A stretch of DNA of 64,000 nucleotides from Acidobacteria bacterium Ga0077534. GTDB lineage: Bacteria > Acidobacteriota > Blastocatellia > Pyrinomonadales > Pyrinomonadaceae. The notes beneath the pieces are model-generated. The model worked only from the letters and a program-made list of their open reading frames with translations, was not told where the DNA came from and made no database searches. Both the position numbers and the translations under genes were made by a program. The DNA is taken from NCBI GenBank assembly GCA_001464455.1, contig LNEI01000027.1:248001-312000 (forward strand). The letters are read 5' to 3'. This document shows, one piece after another, positions 35,364 to 59,076 of this stretch (position 1 is its first letter; the number at the start of each line of letters is the position of its first letter).

Positions 35364-35365
35364 TA

Positions 35366-37261
35366 CTACTTAATAGTAATACCTATCGACTCAAGAAATC
35401 TATTCGGCCGCTCGCCGCCGATGAGTGCAAAGATAAAATCATTCTCGATCGTCCCAAGTTCTTCTTTCGTAACGACGTTTTCGATCACCACCTCGTTCTC
35501 ACGCATTTCCTTGATACCGACTCCAAAACGCAGGTCGAGAAGCCCGTCCTCAGCACAACTGTAGAGCTGGTATTTGTTGCCAAATTTAACTGTCGGGGCG
35601 AGGAAATCGCGAACGAGAACGGTCACGCGGTTCATATCCTCCGGCTTTCGCGGCGATATCGCAGCACCATCGCGTACGGCGACAAGGTCAACCGCAGCTT
35701 CGACCGCGACATTTCCGCCTCCGACGACGATCAAATGCTTTCCGCGAAAATCCATCGGATTCGACAGGCCATAGATGACCTTCTGCTGTTCGCGGCCATC
35801 GATTATCGCTTTCAGATCCTCGTTCGGAAGGCGAAGCTTGTTTGGGGCTCCGCGCAGTCCAATGGCGATGATGACGCGGCGTGAGCGATACTCACGGGGC
35901 GTTTTATCGGCACCTTGTTCGGTCTTGATTATGAAATAATCACCATCCTCAGCCTTATTAACGGCCTTGCAGCTTTCGTTCTCGTTGATGACAACGCCAT
36001 TTGCCGCCAGGCTTCCAAGCCAAACGTCGAGGATATTCTCACGCTGATCGCCTGGGATCTTCGTCTGAAGCTGGTCGACGATGTCATCGACGAACCCGGA
36101 GACTAGCGAGGCGCTATTAGGAATAAACTGAGTTCGAAATGCGGTCGCCCAATCACCACTGCCTTTATTCTGTAGAAAGTATGCTATCCGTTTTTTTAGC
36201 TCTTTCTCGACCTTCTCGGTCAAAAGCGGAGCGAGTTCTTCGCGAAGCCCCTGCGGAATGCCGGCGATCACACGGTCGAATGCCGCTTTCGAATTCGCGT
36301 GCGCAAAATCTACAATCGCCGGCCCGATCGCGTCTATCACTTCCTGCGTTCCATCCGACGAATCACCGCCGTATTTTGCTTTTGCCAAGCCCAGGCCGGT
36401 GACTGGAATACCGCCGAACCAGTCTTTAGTGTCGGGCTTAAAGAAGATGTATTTACCTTTAGGATAAAGATCGATCGTAGACAGGATCTTGTCCTGTTCG
36501 ATCCCGACGTACCTTAAATTCGCCTGCTTTGCCGCGGCTGCTGCCGAAGCTCCGCCCGGGCCGATGCCGATGATAGCTACATCGTAATCCGCCTTTGCCT
36601 CGGGCTGGGCGGTTGCGAGTTCCGCTTTGATGGCGGCGATGACCTCGGCACCTTCTTTTACTGCGTTCTTGATCAAAGGAACGCCCGAAACGTCGCCGAT
36701 AATGAAGCAGCCGGGGACGTTTGTTTGGTACGTTCCGCCGTCACGTGTCGGTGTCGGCATCGAGCGTACTTCTTTTGCCGTGTTGATGACGATGCACGCT
36801 TTAGGATTCACGGGACACTCAGCCTGGCAGGCCGTGTCCTCCATACAGAGGTCAGGTGCAACGGCGGCAGCGGTTCCGTCAACGATCGCGAGAACGTCGT
36901 GCGGGCATGCATCAACGCAAGCCTGGCAGCCGATGCATCGCTCGGCGAAGATCACCGGGTGCGGGTAATCAGGGCCGCGATACTTGTCCATGCCGAGTTC
37001 GCCTAGCTCTGAGCTGGTGAGTGTCCTCAGCTTTGCGGGCGGCTTAGCTTTTTCATCTCGCTTTCGAAAAAAACCAAACGAACGGGCCGAATCTGTGACC
37101 AGTACGAACAGGCCGGAGGCAACACCGACCAGCAGCAGGCTCGTCCAGCCGACCCACGTCAAGCCGCCATATCGCGGCATATTTTCCGGCGCGACGAATC
37201 GGTTCAGCCAAATGAGCAGGCCGATAACGACAAGGCAGGAAATTAGGTGAAAGATCCTCAT
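35366..37261 (-). CDS. Membrane-anchored ferredoxin-flavoprotein oxidoreductase
   Basis: This is a likely NAD(P)H-dependent electron entry protein. Two membrane helices (about 5-24 and 36-56) precede a ferredoxin-like domain with C109-IGCQACVDACP and further cysteines (CMEDTACQAECPVNPKAC). The FAD motif IGIGPGGASAAAAA is near 231, and the second nucleotide motif is VVGGGNVAVEAAVDL. Unusually, the FAD-contact segment YQTNVPGCFIIGDVSG, normally C-terminal in thioredoxin-reductase-like enzymes, lies before the first Rossmann motif, while the protein ends at PNRFLESIGITIK. A helical insertion of about 140 residues splits the FAD part. It overlaps the FHA-cytochrome gene by 4 bp. Confidence 0.85.
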   Translation of the reverse strand: MRIFHLISCLVVIGLLIWLNRFVAPENMPRYGGLTWVGWTSLLLVGVASGLFVLVTDSARSFGFFRKRDEKAKPPAKLRTLTSSELGELGMDKYRGPDYPHPVIFAERCIGCQACVDACPHDVLAIVDGTAAAVAPDLCMEDTACQAECPVNPKACIVINTAKEVRSMPTPTRDGGTYQTNVPGCFIIGDVSGVPLIKNAVKEGAEVIAAIKAELATAQPEAKADYDVAIIGIGPGGASAAAAAKQANLRYVGIEQDKILSTIDLYPKGKYIFFKPDTKDWFGGIPVTGLGLAKAKYGGDSSDGTQEVIDAIGPAIVDFAHANSKAAFDRVIAGIPQGLREELAPLLTEKVEKELKKRIAYFLQNKGSGDWATAFRTQFIPNSASLVSGFVDDIVDQLQTKIPGDQRENILDVWLGSLAANGVVINENESCKAVNKAEDGDYFIIKTEQGADKTPREYRSRRVIIAIGLRGAPNKLRLPNEDLKAIIDGREQQKVIYGLSNPMDFRGKHLIVVGGGNVAVEAAVDLVAVRDGAAISPRKPEDMNRVTVLVRDFLAPTVKFGNKYQLYSCAEDGLLDLRFGVGIKEMRENEVVIENVVTKEELGTIENDFIFALIGGERPNRFLESIGITIK

Positions 37262-38682
37262 TTGCTATTCAGTTCATTGATCTCTCTAACCACAGCGTCG
37301 CGTCTTCGTTTCAGCGCGTCATCGGTCAGGAATTCGCTCCAGCGTCCTCCGCTGAACGGGTGCTGAACGTGACAGGAGATACAGTTTGCCGAGACAGCCC
37401 CGAACCTCTGGTCGCGGTCGGTGGCACCCGCAGCGGTTGTATGACATGCGGCGCATGTTGCCTTCGGCGTTTCCACGTCAATTGGACTAAAGCTATTGTG
37501 ACAAGTTGAGCACGATACCAATCCGTTCGAGTCTCCCTTTATGCCAGCGGGAGCCTTGAGACGCGCGACGTGGATCGTATGAAATTCCCGACTGAGCCTT
37601 GCCTGCTCGTCCTTATCTCCCGTCGCTGAGCTGTTTATTTCCGGGATCGCCGCCGCGACTTCGCGGTAAACGCCACCCCATTTCCACTCGCCGCCTACTA
37701 TCGGATAACCGTAGGACCCCTCATGGGCAGTTCTAACGGCTCGTCCGTTGTAGGTATTTTTGTTGTAGTCGTTATGACATTCCGCACAACTGGCGATCGC
37801 GGTCGCTGTGATGTCAAAATCGCTGCCCTGATGCTCTTTGTGACAAGCTGTGCAGGTAATACCCGATTCCTCGTGTGCCCTTGTGTTCGATGCGTGAAAT
37901 TCCGTCGCCTGGTGACATTTGATGCACGCATTCTCGAGCGGCTCATTCGCTGTATGACAGGTCGTGCAGGAATCGGAATTTGAACGGTTAGCTATCGTCG
38001 AATTTTCAAAAGTTGCGGCGTGCGGATTCGATAACGGCTTTGGAGCGTATGATTGCGGATATCGCAAAAACGCAAAAACGCCTACCGCCCCAACGACGAG
38101 AAATGCCCAAACAAAAAGGCCAAATCGCCATGGCCGCCGCAGGTCGCCGGTCGGCCGCCAGTTGAACATAGCCTTGCCGGGCTTAGGTTTTTCGGTTGGA
38201 CGAAGCCGTGTTCCCCAGTCTTCTTTCTGCCTGTTTCGCTTTGACCAAAAGACCTTTAGTACGCCCTCCGATGACTGTTGCACCCTCGGCGGCACTGCTC
38301 GAGGGGCGAGGTCGCCGGTTTTTTTCGGAACATGCTCCGTGAAGCGCGATTCGACTATCAGGACTATCTCGTCTTCGAGGCGCCCAACCTCTATCGTAAA
38401 GGGACCGATCTGGATCGTGTCGCCATCGGCCAGAACGTCGCCTCGCTGTGCGGCGATCTTGCGTCCATTTATAGTTAAAATGTTTGACGATGAAAGATTT
38501 GAAAGAACGTATTTACCGTCGCGGAAATTGATGCTCGCGTGGATCCGCGAAACTGCCTTGTGGTCGAGAACTATCTCGCACGAATCCAGACGGCCGATAA
38601 ATATGCCATCTTTCTCCACGATCTGAGTTGGCCGCTCGAGATCGGCGAATGAGATCGTGAATTTTCCAGTCTCCTGACTCAT
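37258..38682 (-). CDS. FHA domain fused to a heptahaem c-type cytochrome
   Basis: Residues about 20-100 form a cytoplasmic FHA domain (GRLDSCEIVLDHKAVSRIHA), which binds phosphothreonine. A basic linker leads to one helix (about 187-206, FGLFVWAFLVVGAVGVFAFL). The periplasmic part has seven CXXCH haem sites: CTTCH, CIKCH, CTACH, CAECH, CSTCH, CAACH and CISCH, resembling c7/c3-type domains. The helix should act as an uncleaved anchor that carries the C-terminus outside. Such a link between a phosphorylation-reading domain and a multihaem wire is rare. The gene starts 1 bp before the end of the upstream gene and overlaps the downstream flavoprotein gene. Confidence 0.9.
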   Translation of the reverse strand: MSQETGKFTISFADLERPTQIVEKDGIFIGRLDSCEIVLDHKAVSRIHASINFRDGKYVLSNLSSSNILTINGRKIAAQRGDVLADGDTIQIGPFTIEVGRLEDEIVLIVESRFTEHVPKKTGDLAPRAVPPRVQQSSEGVLKVFWSKRNRQKEDWGTRLRPTEKPKPGKAMFNWRPTGDLRRPWRFGLFVWAFLVVGAVGVFAFLRYPQSYAPKPLSNPHAATFENSTIANRSNSDSCTTCHTANEPLENACIKCHQATEFHASNTRAHEESGITCTACHKEHQGSDFDITATAIASCAECHNDYNKNTYNGRAVRTAHEGSYGYPIVGGEWKWGGVYREVAAAIPEINSSATGDKDEQARLSREFHTIHVARLKAPAGIKGDSNGLVSCSTCHNSFSPIDVETPKATCAACHTTAAGATDRDQRFGAVSANCISCHVQHPFSGGRWSEFLTDDALKRRRDAVVREINELNSK

Positions 38683-41163
38683 TTATCTCACGTTAAAATA
38701 GATCACTTGTACGATGTGTATCAACATCAAAACGAGCATCAATGATGTAAAAAGCACGTGCGGAGCGAGCCAGAGTTTTAGCAGCTTATGCAGCAGGACC
38801 AAAGCGTCGACCCGGCGGAGAGTCGCGGCGTTTTCGACCGCTTCCATTAGCCTGGCATCATCGGAACGCTCCATGTTTTTCGCCGCGTCGCGAAATTCTT
38901 CGCGGGCGGCGGCGAGCATCGTCGGCAGGTCTTCCTGTTTCAAATACTGCCTGAACAAATAACGGAAACCGAGGAACCGTCGACGGACCTTGCCGTGGAT
39001 CAATCGGCTTAGGTCTTTGTTTTCAGTAGCATCTGCGGCCCGGACAAGTTCGGCCCGCAGCTCACCCCGCCGGGCTTGAAGGTCCTCGATCAGCAGAGGC
39101 TCGCGCTCGATACGGGTCATAAACCACGGCACTATCAGGTAACACGCAGCCCCAAAGATGCCAGTCGCGATGACCAGGTCAAATGTGATCATCAGAGATG
39201 TCGTCATCAATCCGCCGGAACTCGTTCCGCCGTGGACGAGCAGCACGACACCCGCCAAAACGCCCAGATACACATGCGATAGAAGCCAATAACGCAAGGC
39301 TCCAGCGCGCCGCCGATAGATCTGTTTGCGCGCCGGGTAGGCCATTACCCAAACTATTCCGGCAAGGCCGACAAGGCCCGTGATCCAACGCATCGTTACC
39401 CATGATCCAGGACTTAGAGCAACATCTTGAGAAAAACGCTGCGTCGCCCATATCGCCGCTCCGCCACCCGCCAGCACGATCAGAACGCCGAATACATGCC
39501 ACAAAGCGGACCAAAGGTCGAACTTGTGAATATTCACGCCTATCGCATGAGTCTGACTTTTCTGGATCAAGCCCAGCGTTTCATTGATCTCGCCGAAATA
39601 CTCACGCGGGTTTACACGAACAAGCGCCCCGGTTGGACAGTTTTCCTCGCAGGAATACGCCGGAGTCTTTGCTCCGGGTTTGTTTAGGCCGGTATCTTTG
39701 CAGAGATTGCATTTAACTGCCAGCAGATTCTCCGTCTGCTCGACCGGCTCAGGCAGCTTTGTTTTGCCTAGCGAAAATGCTGAAAATGCCGTTTTGATTA
39801 CGCCGTTGCCTGACTGATTCTTGGGATCGGGTCGAACGATCATCGAGATCGCGTCGTAAGGACATTGGGTCGCGCAGTCACTGCAGCCGATGCACGTCGC
39901 CGAATTGATATCGATCTCGCCGTCCGGAAACCGAGCGATGGCGCCTGTCGGGCATCCTGTCAGACATTCCGGGTCCTGACAATGCATGCAAACGGTCGGG
40001 GCGAGAACGCTCTGCGTGCGCCGAGAGTTTGGCTTTACCGGCCTTTCGATGTGGATGCCGCGTCGCACGAGGCGAGAATTACCGTGAACCTTATGGCAAG
40101 CGAGCGAGCAATTGCCGCAGCGAATGCACTTCGCCATGTCCATCACCAGCAGATTTACCCCGTCCACGACGCCCGTCTCGATCTCTCTGCTGGTTGCGGT
40201 AAGAGTTCTTGTATCCTCGGGGTGTAACGGGACAGTGGATGCTGGGGAAGCAGAAGATTCGAGAAACGGAATGAGAGACGACCTCAATTGTTCATCCTCT
40301 CTCAGCCGCGAGATCGCAACCTCGACAACCTCGCTGCGGCCGCGAACGGTGGCGGTGTACTTCCATTCTCCCGGAGTATTGACCGCGTCCAGACCAAGGC
40401 ATGTTCCCGAACCAACAAAGTCGAGCCCGACCGACTCGTCGGTTTCGATCAGAAGGTCAGCGGCCTTTGGATTGAATTCGATGCCGGAAACACGCTGGAT
40501 CCAGCCGCTGCGAACAAAAACGAGACGATTCACCGGATCGCCTTCGCGAAAAAGGATATGGTCCTTCTCGTAAACCGCGAATCTCGCAGCATCGGCAAGC
40601 CTTTTCAACAGGTCCTTATCGAGCGATATTCCGGAAACGTCGCGAAGGTCATTGATGGATAGCGTTAGTCCGTAGTTTCTGTAATTTCGATCTAATGCCC
40701 GTCCGAACTTCGGCAGTTTTCTGAGCAGCCGTATTGCTGGGCGCGTGAGTTCGAGGACATACGCCGAACCTTGATCCCCAGCTACGGAAACTGTCGCGGT
40801 TCGTGGAGTGCCGGAAAGCAGTGCCATTTCACCGAACGAGTTGCCGGGCGGGATCTCACCGACCTTTTTACGGTTCCCTGACGGATCTGTGACCGAGGCG
40901 TCGAGCTTTCCGCTTACCAGAATGTAAAAAATGCTGCTTTCCCAGGTATTTTCCTGGACAATGGTTTCTCCGGGTTGGAATTCGAGAAGCCTGCAATACG
41001 GGCCGACCTGTTTTCCGCGATAGCTGCGGCCAAACAGAATAATATCCATGTCGAGCTCATTGCGAAACTCGCCATTAGGGAGCTTTTCGACCAGTTCCGA
41101 GACGATGTCGACCTTGCGAAAAGCCTCGATTATCTGTTCGTGCTTGTCGACCTCACGTGGCAT
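38683..41163 (-). CDS. Double cNMP-binding domain, polyferredoxin and cytochrome b fusion
   Basis: Two cyclic-nucleotide-binding domains occupy about 50-160 and 190-300 (IPPGNSFGEMALLSGTPRTA is a classic phosphate-binding cassette). An HybA-like ferredoxin region (about 340-530) has CIRCGNCSLAC, CMHCQDPECLTGC, CIGCSDCATQC and CNLCKDTG...CEENC, enough for four 4Fe-4S clusters. The C-terminal 280 residues have about five membrane helices, with histidine pairs 14 residues apart in SHVYLGVLAGVVLLVHG and PHVLFTSLMLVLMLIH, the spacing for two b haems. It probably exchanges electrons between the quinone pool and the periplasmic haem chain, gated by cAMP or cGMP. Gating is inference. Confidence 0.88.
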   Translation of the reverse strand: MPREVDKHEQIIEAFRKVDIVSELVEKLPNGEFRNELDMDIILFGRSYRGKQVGPYCRLLEFQPGETIVQENTWESSIFYILVSGKLDASVTDPSGNRKKVGEIPPGNSFGEMALLSGTPRTATVSVAGDQGSAYVLELTRPAIRLLRKLPKFGRALDRNYRNYGLTLSINDLRDVSGISLDKDLLKRLADAARFAVYEKDHILFREGDPVNRLVFVRSGWIQRVSGIEFNPKAADLLIETDESVGLDFVGSGTCLGLDAVNTPGEWKYTATVRGRSEVVEVAISRLREDEQLRSSLIPFLESSASPASTVPLHPEDTRTLTATSREIETGVVDGVNLLVMDMAKCIRCGNCSLACHKVHGNSRLVRRGIHIERPVKPNSRRTQSVLAPTVCMHCQDPECLTGCPTGAIARFPDGEIDINSATCIGCSDCATQCPYDAISMIVRPDPKNQSGNGVIKTAFSAFSLGKTKLPEPVEQTENLLAVKCNLCKDTGLNKPGAKTPAYSCEENCPTGALVRVNPREYFGEINETLGLIQKSQTHAIGVNIHKFDLWSALWHVFGVLIVLAGGGAAIWATQRFSQDVALSPGSWVTMRWITGLVGLAGIVWVMAYPARKQIYRRRAGALRYWLLSHVYLGVLAGVVLLVHGGTSSGGLMTTSLMITFDLVIATGIFGAACYLIVPWFMTRIEREPLLIEDLQARRGELRAELVRAADATENKDLSRLIHGKVRRRFLGFRYLFRQYLKQEDLPTMLAAAREEFRDAAKNMERSDDARLMEAVENAATLRRVDALVLLHKLLKLWLAPHVLFTSLMLVLMLIHIVQVIYFNVR

Positions 41164-41177
41164 TTATACCTCGGCAG

Positions 41178-41594
41178 TCAAGAGGTCACTGCGCTTAAAT
41201 TGATCGGATAATAAAAGATAACGACGGCCGCAGCCACGACGACCAGGATGCCCAGAAAAACTAGTAGGGCCAGGATGATCCCGATGACCACCCATTTGTT
41301 GACTCCTTTTTTCGCCGGCTTTTCAGCGCCCTTCGCGGCAGGCTGAGATGCCGGGGCGGCAACAGGCTCGAGCGTTGCCTTGACTGGATCGGGGGTTTTT
41401 GAAATATTCAGCCCCATATCCGTAAGCATCTGATTGTACATCGTTTGCCCGAGCTGAACGGTGTGGCCCATGGCCTCAAAATCAGTCTGCTTACCCCTTA
41501 ATTTTTCATCTACAAATGCATTGCCGCAACCGGGACAAAAGGCCTTGGCCTCGTCGACCATTTCCGAACACTGCTCGCACTGCTTCAACGCCAT
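41178..41594 (-). CDS. Zinc-ribbon membrane protein
   Basis: An N-terminal zinc ribbon (CEQCSEMVDEAKAFCPGCG) is followed by about 70 mostly polar residues with an Ala/Pro/Lys-rich stretch, then one long hydrophobic helix near the C-terminus (VVIGIILALLVFLGILVVVA). It should be a tail-anchored protein with the ribbon in the cytoplasm. No specific family. It lies 4 bp after the tetrahaem cytochrome gene ends and 14 bp before the next, so it belongs to the operon. A role in assembly or regulation is only guessed from position. Confidence 0.75.
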   Translation of the reverse strand: MALKQCEQCSEMVDEAKAFCPGCGNAFVDEKLRGKQTDFEAMGHTVQLGQTMYNQMLTDMGLNISKTPDPVKATLEPVAAPASQPAAKGAEKPAKKGVNKWVVIGIILALLVFLGILVVVAAAVVIFYYPINLSAVTS

Positions 41595-41598
41595 TTGA

Positions 41599-42246
41599 TC
41601 AATTCTTAACGTGACAGATCAGGCAATCCTTCGATGTCGCAAACCCCTTTTTCCCTTTTAGCTCAGGGCGGGCCTTGAATGCTGCGTCGTGACACGTGTT
41701 GCAGTTAACATGGTACGAATATTCGTTATTAAGGTCCTTGCCGCCGAGCACGGGCATCTCCTTACCATCAGGAACATTGCCATCCTGAAAATGGCAGTCG
41801 CGACAGCTGCTCACCTTCTGATTTGAAGCCTGCCACGTTTCCATCGTTAAGACCACATCACGTTCTGAAGTAACGAGAGGCGGTTTCAAAGCAGATTTTG
41901 GCTGATCCGTGTGATGGCACTCTACACAGCCAAGGACAGATTTTCCATCCGGACTGTATTTAGCAAAGGCGTGCGTGTCGTGATCGAACGGAACCTCGCC
42001 ATGAACGGCATCCAGGCTATCCTTTCCGAGGACAAAATCCTTGGGGATCTTCTTGCCGCCGGCAGGGGGCTTTGCGGCATTTGCATTAGAGTTTGCGGCA
42101 GTATTCGCGGCAGTATTCGCCGGTGTCGGCGACGCGGAAGCGAGATAAGCTGAGCCGTTTCCGGTATTTGAGATCCCACAGGCAAAAGCGAATGCCGTTA
42201 GAGACGCGAATAACGATACCACGATTAGTTTAGCCAGATTCTTCAT
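41599..42246 (-). CDS. Tetrahaem c-type cytochrome, probable lipoprotein
   Basis: The leader ends in AFAFACG, a lipobox, so Cys23 may be lipidated. After an Ala/Asn/Thr-rich linker, four haem sites follow: CVECH, CRDCH, CNTCH and CLICH, with additional His residues (HDTHAF, YSYHVNC) for the sixth ligands. The pattern fits class III/c7-like cytochromes that relay electrons in the periplasm. Lgt and LspA at 5.6-7 kb would process it. The gap of 73 bp to the upstream nonahaem gene holds no recognisable signal. Confidence 0.92.
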   Translation of the reverse strand: MKNLAKLIVVSLFASLTAFAFACGISNTGNGSAYLASASPTPANTAANTAANSNANAAKPPAGGKKIPKDFVLGKDSLDAVHGEVPFDHDTHAFAKYSPDGKSVLGCVECHHTDQPKSALKPPLVTSERDVVLTMETWQASNQKVSSCRDCHFQDGNVPDGKEMPVLGGKDLNNEYSYHVNCNTCHDAAFKARPELKGKKGFATSKDCLICHVKN

Positions 42247-42319
42247 ATCAGTGTGCCCACTATTAAACTCTCATTCATAACCCAATGTCAATGTTTTTAC
42301 GGAGATAGACGGCACATCG

Positions 42320-43267
42320 CTAACCACCCGGAGAGCCCGACGGGGCGGGCAGAGTTTCATCCTCTTGATACGTCTCGGCCGGCAGATTGAGCGTTCCCAT
42401 GTTTTTGTGACATTGAGCGCAAGTTTGAGGCCGGGTAAGATCGTTACCCGAAAAGGCACGGCGGCCGTTGTGACACTGCAGGCAGTTGTTTCCCGGCGTA
42501 GTCCGGTGCTGCAAGATAGCGATGTTTGTCACCTGCCGTCCCTGCGGGGCACCGTTGACGACGCGATGGCATTCGCTGCAGTTAACACCCTGCCGGGCGG
42601 TATGATCGGAATGTCGAAAAATCGCTTTGAAGTTATATTGCGAGACGAGCGTACGGCGGTAAGGCGCGATCTCATGGCAAACATTACAGCTGCCGATCTG
42701 GCTCTCGGGCGTATGGCATGTGTAGCAATTGTTATGGGTATCGATCCCGGATGGGATGGTTTGGGCTGCTCCTGCAGGTTGGTGGCAGAACGCACAACCT
42801 TGAGCAGGGCGTCCGGCACCGCTGTCATGAGCGCCGTGCTCAAACTTCATGTTGAAACCTTCCTTAAACTTGGCTGGGAAGGCACGCATCGGCGGGTCGT
42901 TCGACTCGACATTCTCATGGCAGATCGCACAAAATGCCCGATTTTCGTCAGTTACCGTGTTGTCGATAAACTGGTTCAAGTGACATCCGACGCAGGATTC
43001 ATGGCCCGCAAACTCCAGCTCACGCTGCTTTCCTTCACGCCGATGACAAGCGATACAGTCGAATTCCTTGTGCTCAGGAACTGTGTGTGAGAATTTGTCG
43101 AATTTTGAGTCTGATGCCTTTTGAGCGACGGGTTCGGGCCTTTCCGAAGACGTTATCGCCGGCGGTGTCCGTGCTGCCTGCTGGATGCAGCTTACGACAA
43201 ACACAACCGTTCCCAGCAATAGCAGGGCGAGTTTTAATCTTGTAAATTTGTCGGCAGAGATCGACAT
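42320..43267 (-). CDS. Nonahaem c-type cytochrome, probable lipoprotein
   Basis: The leader LALLLLGTVVFVVSC has a lipobox cysteine near residue 27. Nine CXXCH sites are present: CIACH, CVGCH, CAICH, CAFCH, CYTCH, CNVCH, CSECH, CLQCH and CAQCH, spaced 15-45 residues apart, as in long periplasmic or outer-membrane haem wires. There is no other domain. It starts 7 bp after the preceding nonahaem gene ends and is clearly cotranscribed. Confidence 0.93.
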   Translation of the reverse strand: MSISADKFTRLKLALLLLGTVVFVVSCIQQAARTPPAITSSERPEPVAQKASDSKFDKFSHTVPEHKEFDCIACHRREGKQRELEFAGHESCVGCHLNQFIDNTVTDENRAFCAICHENVESNDPPMRAFPAKFKEGFNMKFEHGAHDSGAGRPAQGCAFCHQPAGAAQTIPSGIDTHNNCYTCHTPESQIGSCNVCHEIAPYRRTLVSQYNFKAIFRHSDHTARQGVNCSECHRVVNGAPQGRQVTNIAILQHRTTPGNNCLQCHNGRRAFSGNDLTRPQTCAQCHKNMGTLNLPAETYQEDETLPAPSGSPGG

Positions 43268-43274
43268 TTATTAG

Positions 43275-44363
43275 CTAAGGCTTCTTATGGCTCACGGGTA
43301 TTTCAAACCGGCCCACCGCGGATGTATGGCAGTACGTGCACTGGAACGGGGCCGTTTTGTTCGAGATGCTCGCTTCGCGGGCGGCTATCTCGTCTAACAA
43401 TACTCTCCGTGATTTGCCCTCTTCCTGGGTTGCGTGACAGCGCCAACAGGTCGAGATCGGCACATCGGCGTCTTTCATCAACTTGACCTGCGAATTTTGC
43501 GTTATTCGAACATGACACGAAGCGCAGTCATTTTCGACGTGTCCGGTGCGGGTATGGTCAAACTTTGTCGAATACCGTTCTAACGTTCGCCTTTCGATAT
43601 ACGGGCTGGTCATTTCGTGACAGCCTGCACAATTCTGCTTGCCCTTTGGCAGATATTGATACTGATAGTGGCAATTAAAGCACGACGCGTGACCATCGGG
43701 CGAATCCTTAAAGAAGGCCGGTGTTAACGGGCGTTCGAATGTATCGGCAACTACGTCCCCCAGAGGTTTAAGGCCTGTCAAAGTCCGTGCACGGTTTCGC
43801 GGCATCTGCGAACTTGTCTCGTGGCACACTGCGCAGCTGTAAGGATCCTCTGCCGCGGCTACGGGGGTCGGTGAATAAGACGCCCGAACAAAATGAGCGA
43901 CTGCGACATCAGGGAATTTTTCGTTTTTGGCGATCAGGTCCTGATGAACGTCGTGTGGAAAGATGATGTTGAACTGTCTTGCCCTGCCCTGAACCGGAAA
44001 TGGCAGCACGGCCCTCGCCCTCATCGACGGAACTGTATGGCAAGTGCCGCAAAATACGCCGCCGCCGGAAAACGCTGCGTCGGTGTGGCAAGCGAAGCAA
44101 ACATTGCCCGCTCCCTGACGGTGCGGATTGGGGAACGTAGTTACGTCTGGAAAAGATGGCTCCTTGTGTCGTCTGGGAGAGGTCCAGTTCGGCGTTGGGA
44201 GCTGGTGACAAACACTGCAATCGGCATATCGACCGGTCTTATGTTCCTTGGTGTTATGCGAGAAGGCCTGAGCTCGGCGTTGTGCCGAGGAACGCGTAAT
44301 GAATACCGAGCCGTAAATGACACAGCCGATCGTGATCAAAAGAATTGTGATGTACGTCTTCAC
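43275..44363 (-). CDS. Nonahaem c-type cytochrome
   Basis: An N-terminal hydrophobic segment (ITILLITIGCVIYGSVFI) without a clear cleavage site may anchor the protein in the inner membrane. Nine haem sites follow: CSVCH, CFACH, CGTCH, CAVCH, CFNCH, CAGCH, CASCH, CWRCH and CTYCH. Free histidines (HNTKEHK, HDVHQDL, HARTL-like areas) can serve as distal ligands. It overlaps the upstream unknown gene by 4 bp. The pairing with a second nonahaem protein suggests a periplasm-spanning chain. Confidence 0.93.
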   Translation of the reverse strand: MKTYITILLITIGCVIYGSVFITRSSAQRRAQAFSHNTKEHKTGRYADCSVCHQLPTPNWTSPRRHKEPSFPDVTTFPNPHRQGAGNVCFACHTDAAFSGGGVFCGTCHTVPSMRARAVLPFPVQGRARQFNIIFPHDVHQDLIAKNEKFPDVAVAHFVRASYSPTPVAAAEDPYSCAVCHETSSQMPRNRARTLTGLKPLGDVVADTFERPLTPAFFKDSPDGHASCFNCHYQYQYLPKGKQNCAGCHEMTSPYIERRTLERYSTKFDHTRTGHVENDCASCHVRITQNSQVKLMKDADVPISTCWRCHATQEEGKSRRVLLDEIAAREASISNKTAPFQCTYCHTSAVGRFEIPVSHKKP

Positions 44364-45136: not shown

Positions 45137-45143
45137 GGCTTAA

Positions 45144-46814
45144 TTAGTCCACGAACGGCCGTGCCGGAAACTTGAGGAAAGGCAATCTAACGCCACGGAC
45201 AAAAGTTCGATCAGAACGCATATTTGCAGGCGAAGGGAATAGGTTTGCCCCACCCGCACTGATCAGATCATCCTGGTCGATCCCATCACCGCTAACGCCG
45301 ATCGCGCCGATAAGGGTCGAGCCTCGGTAAAGCGGCTGTCCGCCCGCAAAGGTCTGAACGCCGTTGGGCAACTCAGGGATGGATGTGCACGGGCACGGTG
45401 CCAGGAGGAAGTCCTTCTTCTTGAACTGAGCTCCCCGGCAGGCAGGAGGATTTGGCGACAAAGCTGCCAACAATGCAGGACGGATGAGATCCAGTTGAAA
45501 CCCGACATTGAATGGACTCCAATCTCCGAGGGGCGTGCTAAACGGCCCTGCCTGAGTGTTATTTATACCGTCGGGAAATAACGGACGATGCAAGAATCCA
45601 AAGCCACGGTCGCTGAACGCAATGCTTCCATTGAGGGTGATACCGTCCGCCACGCCGCGAGTCACATACGACCCCAGGCCTGCTGCGGTCAACTTTGCCC
45701 CCGCGTCGGAGCGGGCGAGAAAGTTGGTCGTTCGAGCCTTCTGAACTGCGACATCGAGACCGAATACCGGAGCATCCTGCTGTCGGAATAATCCGACGAC
45801 CTTACCGTCGATATCGACGACGGCGATCGTAACACGGGCGTTAGTGCCTATTGGTTGCCTAATTGCGGCTCGGGTAACGTTTGCAATAGCGACGGCTCCA
45901 CCGAGGATCTGCTGAACTTCAGCGACGGAAAGTGTCGAGCCGGCGACGATCGGGAACCTGGAGCTGAATTGGCCGTTTACGCCGCCCAGCGTGCCTGGTA
46001 TAAAGTCCGATGCCGGGGCCGCTCGCAGAGCCGAGGTGACAACACCGGGAAGCGAGCCAAATGCTGGGGCGGTAACGCTCTCTGTGGTCGAGAAGTTTGC
46101 AAACGGAAAACGTATGCCTTCGACCAAGATATTATCGCCGCGAATCAAAGGCGGGGCTTCAAAACCTCGCGTTCCAACAACTGCTATCTGTTCTTCGAAC
46201 GACTGGTCGCTGTCCGTAGGGTCGCGGTCGATCGTGTACAGTCCGTCACCTTCGACACCGATGCCGCCAACGGCGACGCCGTTTTTGTAGAGCGGAAGGC
46301 CACCGGGATCGCCCGAAAGCCCTAACGGGAGAGCCGCGATCGCGATATCAGAGCACACAAGTGTCGAGAACTGGACGCCGTAGAGCGGTCCGCCGGGGCG
46401 GTTATCATCCTTTGGCGGGAAATGTTCCTGGATGATGAATGATGCGGTCCGGGTCGTGAAAGCATTTCCGCCGGTTGAAAATATTCCAGCCGTCCCAGCT
46501 TTGGAATGTGCGGCCAGGGCCGCGGGAACGGTCAGATTTTCGAGTCCCTGGCCAGCTCTGCCAACGCTGCGGATCAGCGTATTGGCGTTCGCACCGGTCA
46601 TTTGGAACGTTCCCAGCAGGTTTCCTTCCTTGTCGGTCACTGAAATAGTGACACGCTGGTTTATCGAAACGGCCTTTGAAACGGCCTGAGCGATGACCGT
46701 CTGCACGTCGGTGAGCGTCAGGCTCTGCGACCTAGCGGCCACGGCCATGAAGACAATCACAACAAAGCAGGCAAAAAATTGACGTCTTTTAACCACTGTT
46801 CTTAGATTGTCCAT
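45144..46814 (-). CDS. Secreted tandem GlcG/HbpS-like protein (putative haem-binding)
   Basis: After a signal peptide (FACFVVIVFMAVAARS), two GlcG/HbpS-type domains follow, about 30-245 and 295-545. Each has the family opening (LTLTDVQTVIAQAVSKAV; STLSVAEVQQILGGAVAIAN), the strand RVTISVTDKEGNLLGTFQM or RVTIAVVDIDGKVVGLFRQQ, and the late motif IGGIGVEGDG or IGAIGVSGDG. Relatives bind haem or sense redox state as oligomers, but binding residues cannot be assigned here. It is the first gene of the minus-strand multihaem operon and has a promoter close to its start. Confidence 0.85.
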   Translation of the reverse strand: MDNLRTVVKRRQFFACFVVIVFMAVAARSQSLTLTDVQTVIAQAVSKAVSINQRVTISVTDKEGNLLGTFQMTGANANTLIRSVGRAGQGLENLTVPAALAAHSKAGTAGIFSTGGNAFTTRTASFIIQEHFPPKDDNRPGGPLYGVQFSTLVCSDIAIAALPLGLSGDPGGLPLYKNGVAVGGIGVEGDGLYTIDRDPTDSDQSFEEQIAVVGTRGFEAPPLIRGDNILVEGIRFPFANFSTTESVTAPAFGSLPGVVTSALRAAPASDFIPGTLGGVNGQFSSRFPIVAGSTLSVAEVQQILGGAVAIANVTRAAIRQPIGTNARVTIAVVDIDGKVVGLFRQQDAPVFGLDVAVQKARTTNFLARSDAGAKLTAAGLGSYVTRGVADGITLNGSIAFSDRGFGFLHRPLFPDGINNTQAGPFSTPLGDWSPFNVGFQLDLIRPALLAALSPNPPACRGAQFKKKDFLLAPCPCTSIPELPNGVQTFAGGQPLYRGSTLIGAIGVSGDGIDQDDLISAGGANLFPSPANMRSDRTFVRGVRLPFLKFPARPFVD

Positions 46815-46826
46815 GATGGCTTAAGA

Positions 46827-46854
46827 ATATTATACAAACGGCTTAGCTAGTCAA
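46827..46854 (-). promoter_or_regulatory. Probable promoter of the multihaem operon
   Basis: TTGACT (46849-46854) is 16 bp from TAATAT (46827-46832) on the minus strand, overlapping TATAAT at 46829-46834. The start site would be about 46820, a few nucleotides before the ATG of the HbpS-like gene. The rest of the 138-bp divergent region is AT-rich and must also hold the promoter of the beta-barrel gene. Confidence 0.5.
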
Positions 46855-46952
46855 GTTTTTAATTAAAATGTTTGAGGTTAGAGACAAACTGTGCTAATAA
46901 CTCTGTAGTTAGTTTTAAAAGTAAGTGAGAGTTTTCTCCCGCCGGATCAAGT

Positions 46953-49058
46953 ATGGTGATGTGTTTTCGCAACCTGACCATGTTGATCGCGATTTCAGTA
47001 CTCGGATCGCTCGTTACCCTTGCGCAAACCTCTTCAGGAAGTCTAACTGGAAAAGTGACCGATGCCGAAGGCAAGCCGGTCGCCGGTGTGACCGTTGTTA
47101 TCACGAATCAAACAAACTCTGAGAGTACCTCGAAAAGAACGTCGTCGGATGGGTCTTATTCAACCAAACTGCGTGCAGGTGCGTATCGCATCTCGGTCTT
47201 GGCCCCATACGAGGCCAGATTCGACCGCGGCAAGGCTACGGCATACGGGATCTTCTCAAATTTCATTTGCGACGAGACCAAGAGCAAGTGTCCGACACTA
47301 GAGAACGTAATAATTGACGGCGGCGAACGGAAGATCGATTTTGTGGTGACGCAGGCAGAAAAAGATAAGCCTGCTGCCGGCCAGACTGCGGCAAAAGAGG
47401 TCGTCGAAGAAACTCGCGAAGTTCGCGACAGATGGCGGATAGGATTTCCGGAATATGACCGGTACGGAGACCAAGGGGCTCGCGGCCGCGATGTGCCGTT
47501 CAAGCGCGGTAGTTGGTATAACCCGTACGATCAAAATGTCCTCAAAGGCGATCTCCCGATCATCGGCGATGATTACTTTCTGATCTTGTCCGGAGTTAGT
47601 ACGACGGGCGTAGAGCTGCGTCGCACACCGTCGTCAACCAGCGTCAGTTCGGCCAATGAGGACAGTAATAATTTCCTCGGACGACCTGAGAGTTTTTCGT
47701 TTAACCAGACGATCCAGGTCTCGTTTGAATTCTTTAAGGGCCAGACCGTTTTCCGGCCGCGTTCGTGGGCGATCAAGTTTTCGCCGACATTCAGCATACC
47801 GAACTACCTTAATGCCCGCGAAAACGGGATTGTAAATATCGACGTTCGCCGCGGTACCACGCGAACGGATTTTCAGGTTTCGCTGGAGGAGGCTTTCGCC
47901 GAGGTCAAGCTTTTTGACACCAACGACAACTTCGATGCCGTCTCGTTGCGTGCGGGCATCCAGCCGTTTAATGCTGATTTCAGGGGATTTCTGTTTTCCG
48001 ACAATAATCTCGGAGCGCGAGTGTTCGGAGCATTTTCGAATAACAAGACGCAGTTTAACCTCGCGTATTTTCGTCAGATCGAAAAGGATACCAACAGCGG
48101 GTTGAACTCAATGCGTTCGCTGCGGCCGCAGGATATATACATTGCAAATTTCTTCCGTCAGGATTTCTTGACCAAGGGTTACACGCTTCAGCTTGTCGGT
48201 GCGTACAACCACGACAGAGCCGATGTTCATTATGATCAGAACGGGTTTTTAGTTCGCCCTGCGGTCGTCGGCAATGCCAGAAGGCATAGCGTCAAAGCCG
48301 GATATTTTGGTGTGAACGGGGACGGACACATCGGTATTTTGAATCTGACAAATTCATATTATTTTGCCTTTGGCGAGGACGATTTTAATCCGATCGCGGG
48401 TAAAGCGACGGATATTCGGGCGCACATGGGTGCGGTCGAGGCGTCCATCGATAAGAATTGGCTACGATTTCGCGGCTCGTTATTTTTTGCCTCGGGCGAT
48501 GACGACCCCACCGATGACAAGGCAACCGGTTTTGACGCGATCTTTGACGATCCCAATTTTGCCGGCGGACAGTTTTCGTACTGGAGCCGTCAGGGGATCA
48601 AGCTGGTCTCGACCGATATTGGCCTCAACCAGCCGAACAGCCTGCTGCCGAGCCTTAGGTCGAGCAAGATCGAAGGGCAGGCAAATTTCGTCAATCCGGG
48701 GATCTTCATTTTCAACGCCGGTGTTGATGCCGAGCTGACCCAGACCGTAAAGGCCATATTTAACGCAAATTACTTGCGCTTCCATAAGACCCAGCCGTTG
48801 GAATATGTGCTGTTCCAGCCAAATGTCAGGCGGGAAATAGGTTACGATCTAAGCCTCGGCGTTATCTACCGGCCGTTTCTCATAAACAATCTGACATTTA
48901 CTTTTGGCGGCAACGTTCTTTTCACCGGTAAGGGCTTTCGCGATATCTTTACCGATCGTGCACGAAACTGCCCGATACCAAATTTCTGCAACGGCGATAT
49001 TCCTAATCCAAGCAAGCCGCAATACTCTGTGTTCAGCCAGATGAAGCTTATTTTTTAG
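46953..49058 (+). CDS. Outer-membrane beta-barrel protein with carboxypeptidase-like regulatory domain
   Basis: A signal peptide ([18 protein letters not shown]) is followed by a CarboxypepD_reg-like domain ([20 protein letters not shown]) and then about 480 residues of alternating amphipathic strands that end in MKLIF, with the terminal Phe of outer-membrane barrels. Segments such as [15 protein letters not shown] and [14 protein letters not shown] look like porin or alginate-export-type strands. No TonB box or plug was seen. Between two sets of multihaem genes it is a good candidate for the porin part of a porin-cytochrome conduit. Confidence 0.85.
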
Positions 49059-49081
49059 TTCCGCGGGGGAGTTGTTTAGAG

Positions 49082-52000
49082 ATGACTGCAAATTCCAGAT
49101 CGGTTGTTCGTATCAAGCTCGTTGTCGTTGCGGCTTGTGCCGTGCTGCTTGTCGCAGGGTTGTGGAAAGCCGGGTCGGTCATCGAAACAAGTGTTAGCGC
49201 TCAGCAGCCGACGCCAACTGCAGCAGCTAACTCGGCCCCAACAGCGGCCGCCACGCCAGACACTGCGGCACCTCAGATGGAAGGCTGTCTGAAATGTCAC
49301 AACAATATCGAGCCGATGCACCGGTACAGTTCGACCGGCGAGGTATACGAGACCATTAAGGAGGGCCGTGACGCAGCAGGGCTTACATGCACGTCCTGCC
49401 ACGGCGGAAACCCTGCGGCGATAACGGCGAAGGATGCTCATGTTCGACCCCGATTTCCTAAGGAATGGGGCTGTAAAGAGGGCGGCGATTGCTCCAGCCG
49501 GAACCCGGAACGCACCAACACCCTGCTCGCGAAAGAAAGCAATGAGTTCGTCCGGTTTGTGAATCCAGGCGATTTCCGTGTCATTCAGCAATCCTGCGGA
49601 GAGTGCCATGCCGACGAGAACCGTAATGTCTCGCAGGGAATGATGGCCCACGGAGCGATGCTCTGGGGAGCGGCTCTGTACAACAATGGCGGCTATCACG
49701 TAAAAGACACTCAGTTCGGCGAAAGCTACAACGCAGACGGTAAACCGCAGGCCCTTTATCAAAATCCGAAACCGACCCGCGAACAGCAGGCTAAGAAGGG
49801 ATTTCTCGAATCGCTTAAGCCGCTTCCCCGATGGGAACTGGCCCAGCCGGGTAATGTTCTTCGTGTCTTTGAGCGTGGCGGGAAACGTCGTCTCGAGGTC
49901 GGGCTTCCTGACAAAGAGGAAGAGCCCGGTAAGCCCGATAAGGGGCTCAGCCCGAGAGGCCTTGGAACGAATAACCGTATCGATCCGGTCTATCTCGGCC
50001 TTCAAAAGACACGCCTTCTGGATCCGACGCTAAACTTCATGGGCACGAATGACCATGCCGGTGATTATCGTGCGGCGGGCTGCAGTGCATGCCATGTGGT
50101 CTACGCGAACGATACGAGCATCGCCGCCTCGGCGAAATATGCGCAGGCGGGCAATCAGGGCTTCACGCAGTCGGCCGATACGAGTATTCCGCGTCGCGAG
50201 TCGGGCCACCCGATCAAGCACCAGTTCACGTCGCAGATACCGACCGCGCAGTGTATGACATGTCATATGCATCCAGGCACGAACATGGTCGCGACATATC
50301 TCGGCCGGACGTGGTGGGACAACGAAAGTGACGGCAAATTCATGTACCCGCAGGACAAGCAGATCAACCCGTCACAAAGCGAGGAGATCAAGAAGCTTGA
50401 TAAGAATCCCGAAGGGTCTTCTGTTCGCGGATTGTGGTCTGATTCCGTTTTTCTGCAAAAAACCGGCACCGAAGATTTCAACAAACAGCTCAAAAACGTC
50501 CAGTTTGCTGATTCGCACGGTCATGGCTGGGTTTATAAGAACGTGTATAAAAAAGACCGCAAAGGGAATCTTCTAGATGCCGAGGACAAGATAGTTCCGG
50601 CTGACGACCCCAACAAATTTCAAAAAGCCGTGCATTTGCAGGACATTCACCTTGAAAAAGGAATGCACTGCGTAGACTGCCATTTCCGGCAGGACAGCCA
50701 TGGTACAGGGATCTTGTACAACGAACCGCGCGCTGCGGTTGAGGTTGGCTGTATAGATTGTCACGGAACGCTAAAGAATAAAGCGAATACCATCACCAGC
50801 GGACCGGCGGCAATGCCCGTCACCGCTCGAGGTGAAATAACCCTCCGCGAAAGGGCAAATAAACCGCTGGTCGGGCGCGACCTGACGCGCCTGCAGTTTC
50901 GCGGGATCGACGGACGAAGGCTTCCGGTCCTGCAGGTTCTGACGACAGCGCAAGCCAATTCCAAAAAGTGTACCGACGAGAAAGGAAACCCCATCCCTCT
51001 GAAACAAGGCGATGTCGTTCAGAATTCGATCGTTGAGCCAGGTAAATGCTGGAAAGTGACCCAGACGGCGGACACCGTAACGCCGGGCAACACTGACTAT
51101 AACGAAAAGAGCGCTTACGCCAAGACGATGCAGCGGGACAATTCCACTTGGGGCGATCCGAAGGCGACCGAAGAAATGCTCGCCCACCGCGAGAGCAGTA
51201 TGACCTGCTATGCGTGCCACACATCGTGGGTAACGAGCTGTTTCGGCTGTCACCTTTCGATGGAAGCCAACCGGAAAATGCCCAATCGGCATAACGAGGG
51301 CGGCGACTCGCGCAATTTTACTTCCTACAATTTCCAGGTTCTGCGTGACGATGTTTTCATGCTCGGAAAGGACGGAACGGTGACCGGCCACATGGTCGCT
51401 CCGGTCCGGTCGAGTTCGGCGGTGCTTGTCAGTTCGCGAAACCAAAACCGTGAGTGGATATATTCGCAGCAGCAGACCGTTTCCGCGGAGGGTTTCTCGG
51501 GTCAGGCGTTTAATACGCACGTTCCGCATACGGTTCGCGGTAAAGAGACCCAGACGTGTTCGGATTGCCACGTTTCTAAGAACGAGGACAACAACGCCTG
51601 GCTCGCCCAGGTCCTTCTTCAAGGAACAAATTTCGTCAATTTCATGGGCCGTTACGTCTACGTCGCGGCGACTGACGCTCTCGAGGCCGTCGTAGTGACC
51701 GAGCATACCGAGCCGCAAGCGGTTTTGGGCAGTAATCTTCACAAGCTTGCATATAAAGACAATTACGAAAAATTCGTTAACGGCGGCCGCGAACTGAAAG
51801 AGGTCTACGAAAACAAGGGGCGTCCCGAGGCCTTGCAGGTGCAGGTTCGCGGCGAGTACGCGTATGTTGCCGCAGGCAAAGGCGGATTGCGCGTCTACGA
51901 CGTAGCTCAGATCGACCACAAAGGATTTTCAGAGCGCATCGTGACCGCACCGGTTTCGCCGCTCGGACAAAAGTTCTACGTACCGTCGAAGTACGCGACC

Positions 52001-53056
52001 GCTATCGCCGCCCCGTCGACGCTCGCGGTCGACCCGGCGCGTTGGAGAACAGTAATAAAAGAAGACGGCACGTATGCCCAGGTGCCGCCCGATGAGGCCT
52101 TGAAACTCAATGCGGAAGCGAAAGCAGCCGGCAAACCCGCCGTTGCGATCAACGAGGAAGGCCCGATCCATCCGATCTACGCGTACCTGTTTGTCGCAGA
52201 CAAATTTGAGGGGTTGATACTCGTCAATGCAGCGACGCTGCTCGACGGCGATCCTCAGAACAACTTCCTCAAACGCTCCCTTACTTTTAATCCGAACGGT
52301 GTTCTGAACGGCGCAAACAACATTACGCTTGCCGGAAATTTTGCGTACATTACTACGGATCGAGAGTTAGTGATCCTTGACCTCTCGACGCCGCTGCAGC
52401 CAAGGATCGTCAAGCAAATACCATTCGATAATCCGAAAGCGGTCGCCGTCCAGTTCCTTTACGCTTTCGTCGTCGATAGCGCCGGGATGCATACGCTCGA
52501 CATCAAGGATGTGCAGACGAAAGGCGAAGCGGTCCGCGTCGAAGGAGCGTCTATTCCGCTTAGCGACGCGCATAATATTTACGTCGCCAGAACCTACGCC
52601 TACATCGCGAACGGCAAAGATGGCATTGCGATAGTTGACGTGGAAAGGCCGCGACAACCGAAACTGGATCAGACGTTTAACGCCGGCGGTTCTATCACCG
52701 ACGCTCATGACATCAAGGTGGGGATGACTAACGCCAGCCTCTACGGATACGTCGCGGATGGGAAGAACGGCCTAAAGATCCTGCAGCTCACCGATCCTGA
52801 GACCATGCCAAACTACGCCGGTTTCAGCCCGCGGCCTGAGCCAAGACTCATTGCGACCTTCAAAACCAAGGGCGAAGCTCTTGCCGTCTCAAAGGGGCTC
52901 GACCGTGACCGGGCTGTTGATGAAAGCGGTAATCAGGTCGCGGTCTTCGGACGCCGCGGAGCCCGTCCGTTCGGTTTCGAAGATGTCATGCGTATGCTGA
53001 AGACGAATAGCGGCACCGGCGATTTCTTTACCGTCTCAGATCAGCCGACAAAGTGA
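49082..53056 (+). CDS. Giant decahaem cytochrome with LVIVD repeat propeller
   Basis: The 1324-residue protein has a signal sequence or anchor ([19 protein letters not shown]) with a possible cut after SVSA. Ten haem sites lie between residues about 70 and 830: CLKCH, CTSCH, CGECH, CSACH, CMTCH, CVDCH, CIDCH, CYACH, CFGCH and CSDCH. The remaining 480 residues hold LVIVD-type repeats ([58 protein letters not shown]), which form beta propellers on cell surfaces. It begins 23 bp after the barrel gene, with a GGGGAG site upstream. It is probably exported to the outer surface as terminal electron donor or acceptor. Confidence 0.9.
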
Positions 53057-56938: not shown

Positions 56939-57049
56939 TGTTCCATGATTCTCGGTTTGTTCCGTGGTTGATCTTTTATCGGTTAGCCGCAGAACAAACG
57001 AGAAAACCAAGGACCGAAGAGGCAAGAACAACGGGTTGAGTCTTAAATA

Positions 57050-59071: not shown

Positions 59072-59076
59072 GATTT

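Follow-up and report, generated by a model that had tools for sequence, protein, structure and literature searches.

A candidate trans-envelope porin-cytochrome conduit with a predicted AlgE-type barrel and putative regulatory domains in an acidobacterium

In a 64,000-nucleotide stretch of the genome of Acidobacteria bacterium Ga0077534 (GCA_001464455.1; contig LNEI01000027.1, 248,001-312,000), here called the window and used for all coordinates, we analyzed a gene cluster at approximately 34647-53056 that encodes multiheme c-type cytochromes, an outer-membrane barrel and putative inner-membrane redox proteins. We consider it fairly probable that this cluster specifies a regulated trans-envelope porin-cytochrome conduit (PCC) running outwards from NAD(P)H and quinol to the cell surface, as a variant of the systems described tentatively as PCC4 and, more recently, as 'group 1' PCCs. 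Sequence-level support for this assignment comes from the domains of the encoded proteins, the fixed partnership of the barrel with a decaheme cytochrome, the joint inheritance of the inner- and outer-membrane modules and the fusion of the barrel to a four-heme domain in relatives. An earlier reading of the same DNA, made from its letters alone (the original prediction), had likewise linked NAD(P)H and quinol to the surface. Our results uphold the part of that claim in which a porin-cytochrome set is tied to an NAD(P)H-flavin/Fe-S/cytochrome b module, whereas exposure at the surface, direction of flow and substrate are still presumed. The gene set was real and mostly well read, but the AlgE-type barrel and the LVIVD, FHA and cyclic-nucleotide domains had been overlooked.

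The cluster consists of two divergent units, the left on the minus strand and the right on the plus strand, separated by 138 bp (46815-46952), as had been proposed. Translation confirms the predicted total of 39 heme-binding CXXCH motifs, distributed over five proteins with 7 (37258-38682, minus), 4 (41599-42246, minus), 9 (42320-43267, minus), 9 (43275-44363, minus) and 10 motifs (49082-53056, plus). Also present, as anticipated, are a ferredoxin-flavoprotein (35366-37261, minus), an Fe-S/cytochrome b protein (38683-41163, minus) and a heme-free barrel (46953-49058, plus); these members had been counted as seven proteins, but the list in fact named eight. The minus-strand unit reaches further, to a TPR gene (34647-35363, minus), and additionally encodes an HbpS-like protein, an exported protein of 258 residues and a zinc-ribbon protein. 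The right unit comprises the barrel gene and, starting 23 bp past it, the 3975-bp gene for the decaheme protein with its C-terminal LVIVD domain. Conservation excludes a chance arrangement, since loci whose titles name several different phyla contain the barrel/decaheme pair.

A scan of named genomes yielded at least 547 confirmed barrel-encoding stretches among 590 candidates; the named loci discussed below are the best 80 of these, so that close relatives are over-represented among them. Counting a decaheme gene as adjacent when its start falls between 500 bp upstream and 1500 bp downstream of the barrel gene's end, we found that the decaheme gene adjoins the barrel gene on the same strand in 76 of the 80 named loci, with a median gap of 13 bp. 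Among relatives from the same class, the two genes lie side by side in 26/26 loci (these loci and the named set share at least nine contigs). For the four non-adjacent named loci, the respective genomes have decaheme matches on a different contig, that in G335 being partial and covering residues 697-1313 only. Two of the four (L054 and L072) lie 428 and 537 bp from the locus end, and the other two (L114 and L117) extend 1.7 and 3.0 kb without a partner. Barrel relatives devoid of cytochromes, whose occurrence would have spoken against the original prediction, were thus not found among the named loci: all 80 have a decaheme partner, either adjacent or, in these four, on another contig.

The window set is one member of a broad, widespread class and is not unique. 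Titles of the 80 loci are mostly Acidobacteriota, and also include Planctomycetota, Verrucomicrobiota, Methylomirabilota, Nitrospirota, KSB1, Binatia, Desulfobacterota, Actinomycetota and Betaproteobacteria. In a tree of the barrels, the window barrel is nearest to those from loci titled Chloracidobacterium, Pyrinomonadaceae and Acidobacteria; Verrucomicrobiota form one group and Planctomycetota require two changes. The Betaproteobacteria title and one of the two Actinomycetota titles nest closely within Acidobacteriota and are perhaps misbinned. Thirteen plasmids of Sphingobium/Sphingopyxis carry both barrel and decaheme genes. Within its own phylum, the barrel is present in 31 of 297 sampled genomes, and the set occurs in only 9/37 genomes of the genus, the window's own included.

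Inheritance of the inner- and outer-membrane parts was followed across 60 genomes (the window's own and 59 relatives, which are non-independent samples). The barrel, the decaheme protein and the cyclic-nucleotide-binding/Fe-S/cytochrome b protein are present in the same 28 genomes; an additional genome, G001, was left out of the barrel count, as it was matched by the small N-terminal domain only. The inner-membrane gene is often on a different contig from the barrel, including in the two-contig genomes G046, G050 and G054; this joint occurrence ties the inner and outer modules beyond gene order. Of the 28 barrel genomes, 26 have the flavoprotein, as does one genome without a barrel (G016, 75% complete), and the HbpS-like protein is found in 25/28 barrel genomes, in 0/32 others and in 43/80 named loci.

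Structural and domain predictions for the minus-strand proteins outline an NAD(P)H-linked module at the inner membrane. The flavoprotein combines a 4Fe-4S ferredoxin domain (Fer4, 9.8e-8) and an NAD(P)H/flavin adenine dinucleotide (FAD) oxidoreductase domain (Pyr_redox_3, 1.9e-23) with two N-terminal hydrophobic segments; it is YpdA-like at 104.5 bits, against a cut-off of 339.9. Its neighbor carries an FHA domain (1.9e-15), one hydrophobic segment (residues 188-206) and seven c-type hemes matching cytochrome c3/c7 families. The Fe-S/cytochrome b protein contains cyclic-nucleotide-binding domains in two stretches (PF00027, 3e-25), a 4Fe-4S domain (PF13247, 6.3e-8) and a five-helix b-type cytochrome, whose five hydrophobic regions include one listed as two overlapping segments. 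The motif WX3HX13H occurs twice in this protein (W626 to H644 and W798 to H816), with TGIFG at residue 667 between the copies. According to the accessible text of PMC5566968, the inner-membrane proteins of PCC3 and PCC4 have five helices, with WX3HX13H on helices 3 and 5 and SGxxG on helix 4. Among the loci that we fetched, the doubled motif was found in 23 of 4987 distinct open reading frames (25/5406 with duplicates), all with [ST]GxxG in between.

Among relatives, NAD(P)H-linked input takes more than one form, since fused FAD-cyclic-nucleotide-Fe-S proteins and NuoE/F-like neighbors both occur. In Sphingobium and in locus L124, the three types of domain reside in one protein. A NuoE/F-like protein is encoded beside the cluster in 10 loci, of Terriglobia-type Acidobacteriota where the title tells, and in one of these (L110) the cyclic-nucleotide-binding protein also has NuoG-like Fe-S domains. 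In a KSB1 locus (L116:2939-5462), the FHA domain and a decaheme protein are encoded by separate adjoining genes, compared with the fused form in the window.

The only domain that Pfam recognizes in the barrel is an N-terminal CarboxypepD_reg domain (residues 30-85), and an AlphaFold2 model built from 43 sequences (mean predicted local distance difference test score, pLDDT, 80) has 18 long strands, the predicted AlgE-type barrel extending from about residue 205 to 701. The best PDB matches in a fold search are AlgE structures (Foldseek E 8.3e-15; Z 29.2, root-mean-square deviation 3.0 over 362 residues), with OprD-type barrels close behind (Z up to 27). At the sequence level, the Alginate_exp family (PF13372) matches 3 of 43 barrel family members, with a best value of 2.2e-5; the window barrel has no match to it at 0.01, and no PDB sequence matches the barrel profile at the same threshold. 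MtrB is absent from the 50 fold matches listed for the barrel, an absence that leaves an MtrB fold possible.

The four-heme protein has an N-terminal signal and is possibly a lipoprotein, with an AFAC lipobox that was noted by eye and not flagged by our script. Four heme motifs precede the barrel in eleven barrel sequences, nine of them distinct (two contigs were seen twice), and other Blastocatellia are among the carriers of these fusions; in the window, the four-heme protein is separate. Beyond its orthologs, it is similar to a free four-heme protein (6e-10) and to the fused barrel N-termini (5e-8 to 2e-3), the likeness being modest at 26-30% identity; multiheme open reading frames outside the four-heme family score 0.02 or worse. 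A barrel with an even number of strands has its N-terminus in the periplasm. Fusion of the four-heme domain to the N-terminus of an even-stranded barrel therefore suggests that the four-heme protein sits at the periplasmic mouth. Of the two nine-heme proteins, one has a lipobox-like VVSC sequence (42320-43267) and the other an N-terminal signal (43275-44363).

The decaheme protein (1324 residues; LVIVD, 3.9e-18) is probably the outer terminal of the conduit. Its ten heme sites are conserved in 15/15 aligned sequences. We had considered from CXXCH counts that many LVIVD cytochromes are nonaheme, and rejected this, because eight of the 15 sequences have CX4CH as their third site and none has fewer than ten sites. 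A lipobox-like VAAC lies within the signal segment of the window protein and in 0/14 of the other aligned sequences. Fold searches with the decaheme model returned beta-propellers at low template modeling (TM) score and little on the heme part.

From these features we infer a path, including the order of its carriers, the side of the membrane on which each lies, exposure at the surface, outward flow, gating and substrate. Cytoplasmic NAD(P)H would be oxidized by the FAD/ferredoxin protein, and electrons would pass through 4Fe-4S clusters to the five-helix di-heme b cytochrome, which may also exchange electrons with quinones. They would continue through the membrane-anchored seven-heme domain and the nine-heme proteins to the four-heme protein, which would dock at the periplasmic mouth of the 18-strand AlgE-type barrel, the decaheme LVIVD protein, as the barrel's constant partner, probably being the outer terminal. 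Electron flow may be gated by the cyclic-nucleotide and FHA domains, which probably face the cytoplasm.

Such domains suggest, from sequence, control by cyclic nucleotides and phosphoproteins. Genes for CHASE2-cyclases are present in the fetched stretch of 6/80 named loci (a raw count that includes two near-copies) and on pMSHV, a plasmid described below, and thus point towards cyclic-nucleotide control. These genes lie close to the barrel at L092:7255-9627 and L124:17494-19728. The CHASE2-cyclase is the sole PF00211 match in the genomes of L095, L098 and L124, and the genome of L112 has 17. Between the two units of the window cluster, the 138-bp region carries weak sigma-70-like sites towards the left unit; a consensus scan of 46600-47100 returned three sigma-70-like sites versus 0.5 in shuffles, and these promoter-like sites are weak.

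How distinct is this set from known systems? The original prediction held that its layout is unlike the named Mtr, Pcc and Cbc clusters, a view that is not supported, given the PCC3/PCC4 b-cytochrome signature, the heme counts of a Planctomycetota relative and the 'group 1' arrangement. As described in the accessible text of He et al. 2017 (PMC5566968), PCC4 similarly combines a porin, several multiheme cytochromes and a PF13247 Fe-S protein. Its inner-membrane signature recurs in the window protein, which has two WX3HX13H motifs, five hydrophobic regions and T in place of S in SGxxG. In PCC4 subgroup II, PF13247 is found beside the inner-membrane protein, whereas in the window the two are fused in one protein. 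The heme counts of PCC4 (4, 5 and 10) differ from those of the window (7, 4, 9, 9 and 10); the Planctomycetota relative (L126) has 10, 5 and 4 hemes beside its barrel, as in PCC4. The accessible text describes PCC4 as having no extracellular cytochrome, and the window porin is likened to that of PCC4 by description, not by porin sequence. The word stem Acidobacteri- does not occur in the main text of that paper.

A second description concerns cave and groundwater metagenome-assembled genomes (MAGs; PMC13264449, June 2026). Its accessible parts report eleven 'group 1' clusters with a 4-5 kb decaheme gene by a porin of about 20 strands and a ferredoxin-NADP reductase nearby in 7/11, and assign 21 of 36 PCC-bearing MAGs to Gammaproteobacteria or Acidobacteriota. 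The window shares this arrangement of a large decaheme gene beside a porin, with 18 predicted strands and a gene length of 3975 bp that is slightly under the range given. Very probably, the 'group 1' clusters are of the same kind as the window set, a match made by description and not by sequences. The parts of that text accessible to us do not mention LVIVD, FHA or cyclic-nucleotide domains, an AlgE fold or a four-heme fusion. Taken with the PCC4-like hemes of L126, the 'group 1' description therefore indicates that this kind of cluster had probably been described before, tentatively under the name PCC4 (2017) and later without a name (2026). In the open-license literature text that we searched (without supplements), we found no description of LVIVD, FHA or cyclic-nucleotide domains in such clusters, and no paper on multiheme cytochromes with porins in Sphingobium.

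Resemblance to other systems is more distant. Like the window, MtrCAB, MtoAB and PioAB pair a heme-free barrel with decaheme partners, a functional analogy; unlike them, the window barrel has no match to the MtrB/PioB porin family TIGR03509 (E 0.01), has 18 predicted strands versus 26-28, and has no MtrA/DmsE-type decaheme neighbor over cut-off. The nearest scores to the latter family (TIGR03508) are 40.2 bits for the seven-heme protein and 24.5 bits for one nine-heme protein, against a cut-off of 192.2. A whole-genome TIGR03509 search also gave no match, but none of its control genomes matched either. Membership in Mtr, Pio or Geobacter Ext systems was rejected on the profile scores of the window proteins. 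With the fused cytochrome-porin Cyc2, the class shares a heme domain on the barrel N-terminus in nine relatives; that domain has four hemes, not one, and the window proteins are unfused. AlgE shares the 18-strand fold (Z up to 29 for the predicted model) and differs in that identity is 10-12%, the window barrel lacks a PF13372 match and its partners are cytochromes. The Verrucomicrobia porin system with an eight-heme partner (He et al. 2017, PMC5615132, accessible part) differs from the window in heme count, and Manganitrophus PCCs, dodecaheme systems in the accessible part of PMC9040806, were set aside. In the acidobacterium Holophaga, PCCs of MtrB and ExtB/E type, with a different kind of porin, are reported in the accessible text of PMC7399161.

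Outside the Acidobacteriota, a similar set is carried by pMSHV, a conjugative plasmid of Sphingobium herbicidovorans MH (L137; NZ_CP020539.1, 790375-826160). Its gene order is four-heme c554-like, HbpS, barrel and decaheme, then an FHA-like ten-heme protein, a b cytochrome and a FAD-cyclic-nucleotide-Fe-S protein. The FHA-like domain is below cut-off, and CHASE2-cyclase and two-partner-secretion type genes lie nearby. As this organism is cultured, the plasmid-borne set offers a direct test case.

We consider it possible, but less likely than not, that these loci define a distinct and very widespread class of conduit in soil and water bacteria. Such a conduit would cross the outer membrane through a narrow AlgE-type barrel with an inner four-heme cap and a decaheme beta-propeller partner, and cyclic nucleotides and the binding of phosphoproteins would switch it at its NAD(P)H-linked inner-membrane end. 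Should the cluster prove to be a conduit, the ability to exchange electrons with minerals, humics or other cells would be common among Acidobacteriota, Planctomycetota and other little-studied groups. It would also follow that a conduit can work with a much narrower barrel than MtrB, and that exporting electrons can be coupled to signaling by second messengers and phosphorylation.

Several observations weigh against the outward conduit that we favor. Surface exposure and extracellular electron transfer are what we infer from the genes. The nearest fold to the barrel is a polysaccharide exporter, and the decaheme model is of moderate confidence (pLDDT 69). MtrB has 26 strands by the count generally given. 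An 18-strand barrel is much narrower than one of 26-28 strands, and is therefore not expected to accommodate an entire MtrA-like wire; the higher of these figures is a prediction given for MtrB in the accessible text of PMC7096707. Two genomes, G039 and G055, keep the barrel and decaheme protein, match the cyclic-nucleotide-binding/Fe-S/cytochrome b protein in part and lack the flavoprotein at 1e-20. We looked for a link between the cluster and a cyclase in the window and found none: PF00211 occurs in 55 of the 60 genomes irrespective of the conduit, including most without a barrel, and G053 has the conduit without PF00211. Finally, the organism probably respires oxygen, as its genome encodes a protein resembling subunit I of cytochrome c oxidase (660.9 bits versus a cut-off of 670.75). 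Two related observations concern individual genes. The inner-membrane match of G055 (C2:19618-21222) contains two in-frame TGA codons and is a possible decaying copy. The window's own genome also encodes a 748-residue COX1-family protein (L139:691-2937) with no NCBIfam match at 1e-10, and a CtaD-like subunit I elsewhere (L138).

Among the alternatives, the one that fares best, although we regard it as unlikely, is that the same conduit runs inwards: the decaheme protein would oxidize an extracellular donor, for instance Fe(II), Mn(II) or humics in reduced form, and pass the electrons to NAD(P)+ or the quinone pool. Electron uptake in Fe(II) oxidizers is indeed what He et al. proposed for PCC3 and PCC4 (PMC5566968, accessible text). 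However, the NAD(P)H-linked modules fit an outward direction at least as well, and the accessible part of PMC13264449 favors export for most of its PCC-bearing MAGs.

A somewhat less probable reading has the decaheme protein as an enzyme and not a wire terminal, reducing a specific extracellular or periplasmic compound such as selenite, tellurite or another oxyanion. In its favor, the decaheme protein resembles ExtM, ExtN and ExtO from the 'selenite/tellurite reduction' clusters of Geobacter (1.4e-17, 9.4e-7 and 2.4e-6), and 58 of its residues form a stretch similar to octaheme nitrite reductase (1.3e-5). The Ext scores, however, are 63.2, 28 and 26.6 bits against NCBIfam cut-offs of 800, 200 and 200, and the CXXCK motif is absent from all 15 aligned decaheme sequences, so that the protein lacks a catalytic heme marked in this way.

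That the barrel is instead an AlgE-like polymer exporter with cytochromes as chance neighbors is very improbable: AlgE is its best fold match, a few family members match PF13372 and, judged by eye, genes of a pectin type follow further along the window, but the barrel is paired with the decaheme protein in loci of several phyla, is inherited jointly with the inner-membrane module and is fused to a four-heme domain in relatives, and the recurrent neighbor families examined, those found in at least six loci, are redox proteins, cyclases, HbpS-like proteins, TonB-type receptors and one unknown.

Several further genes belong to the minus-strand unit. The TPR protein (TPR_2, 2.9e-12; TPR_CcmH_CycH, 1.6e-5, below cut-off) has an N-terminal hydrophobic segment and is a possible helper in cytochrome c maturation; a weakly similar TPR gene (9e-5) sits next to the cluster in Sphingobium. 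The zinc-ribbon protein (41178-41594, minus; DZR, 0.0011, below cut-off) has one hydrophobic segment and is conserved in the cluster within the genus by synteny. The exported 258-residue protein (44360-45136, minus), which has no match in Pfam or NCBIfam, is conserved in the cluster, being present in 6/80 named loci and in loci of the genus, and holds its place between the HbpS and nine-heme genes in several Pyrinomonadaceae-type loci. The exported HbpS/GlcG-like protein (45144-46814, minus) matches PF03928 at 1.6e-20.

Elsewhere in the window, approximately 17 kb from the cluster, a gene for an FHA-GAF-adenylate/guanylate cyclase (15684-17390) provides the sole PF00211 match in this genome (16836-17354) and lies near the MreB gene (17448-18521) and one for a CdaA-like diadenylate cyclase (18587-19435). 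On the other side, the next gene downstream, which we did not count in the cluster, encodes an OMP_b-brl_4/CarboxypepD_reg protein (53339-56938). It is followed by genes that appear by eye to encode a pectinesterase/pectate lyase and a polygalacturonase, and the region 53339-60483 is a probable pectin-use cluster adjoining the conduit.

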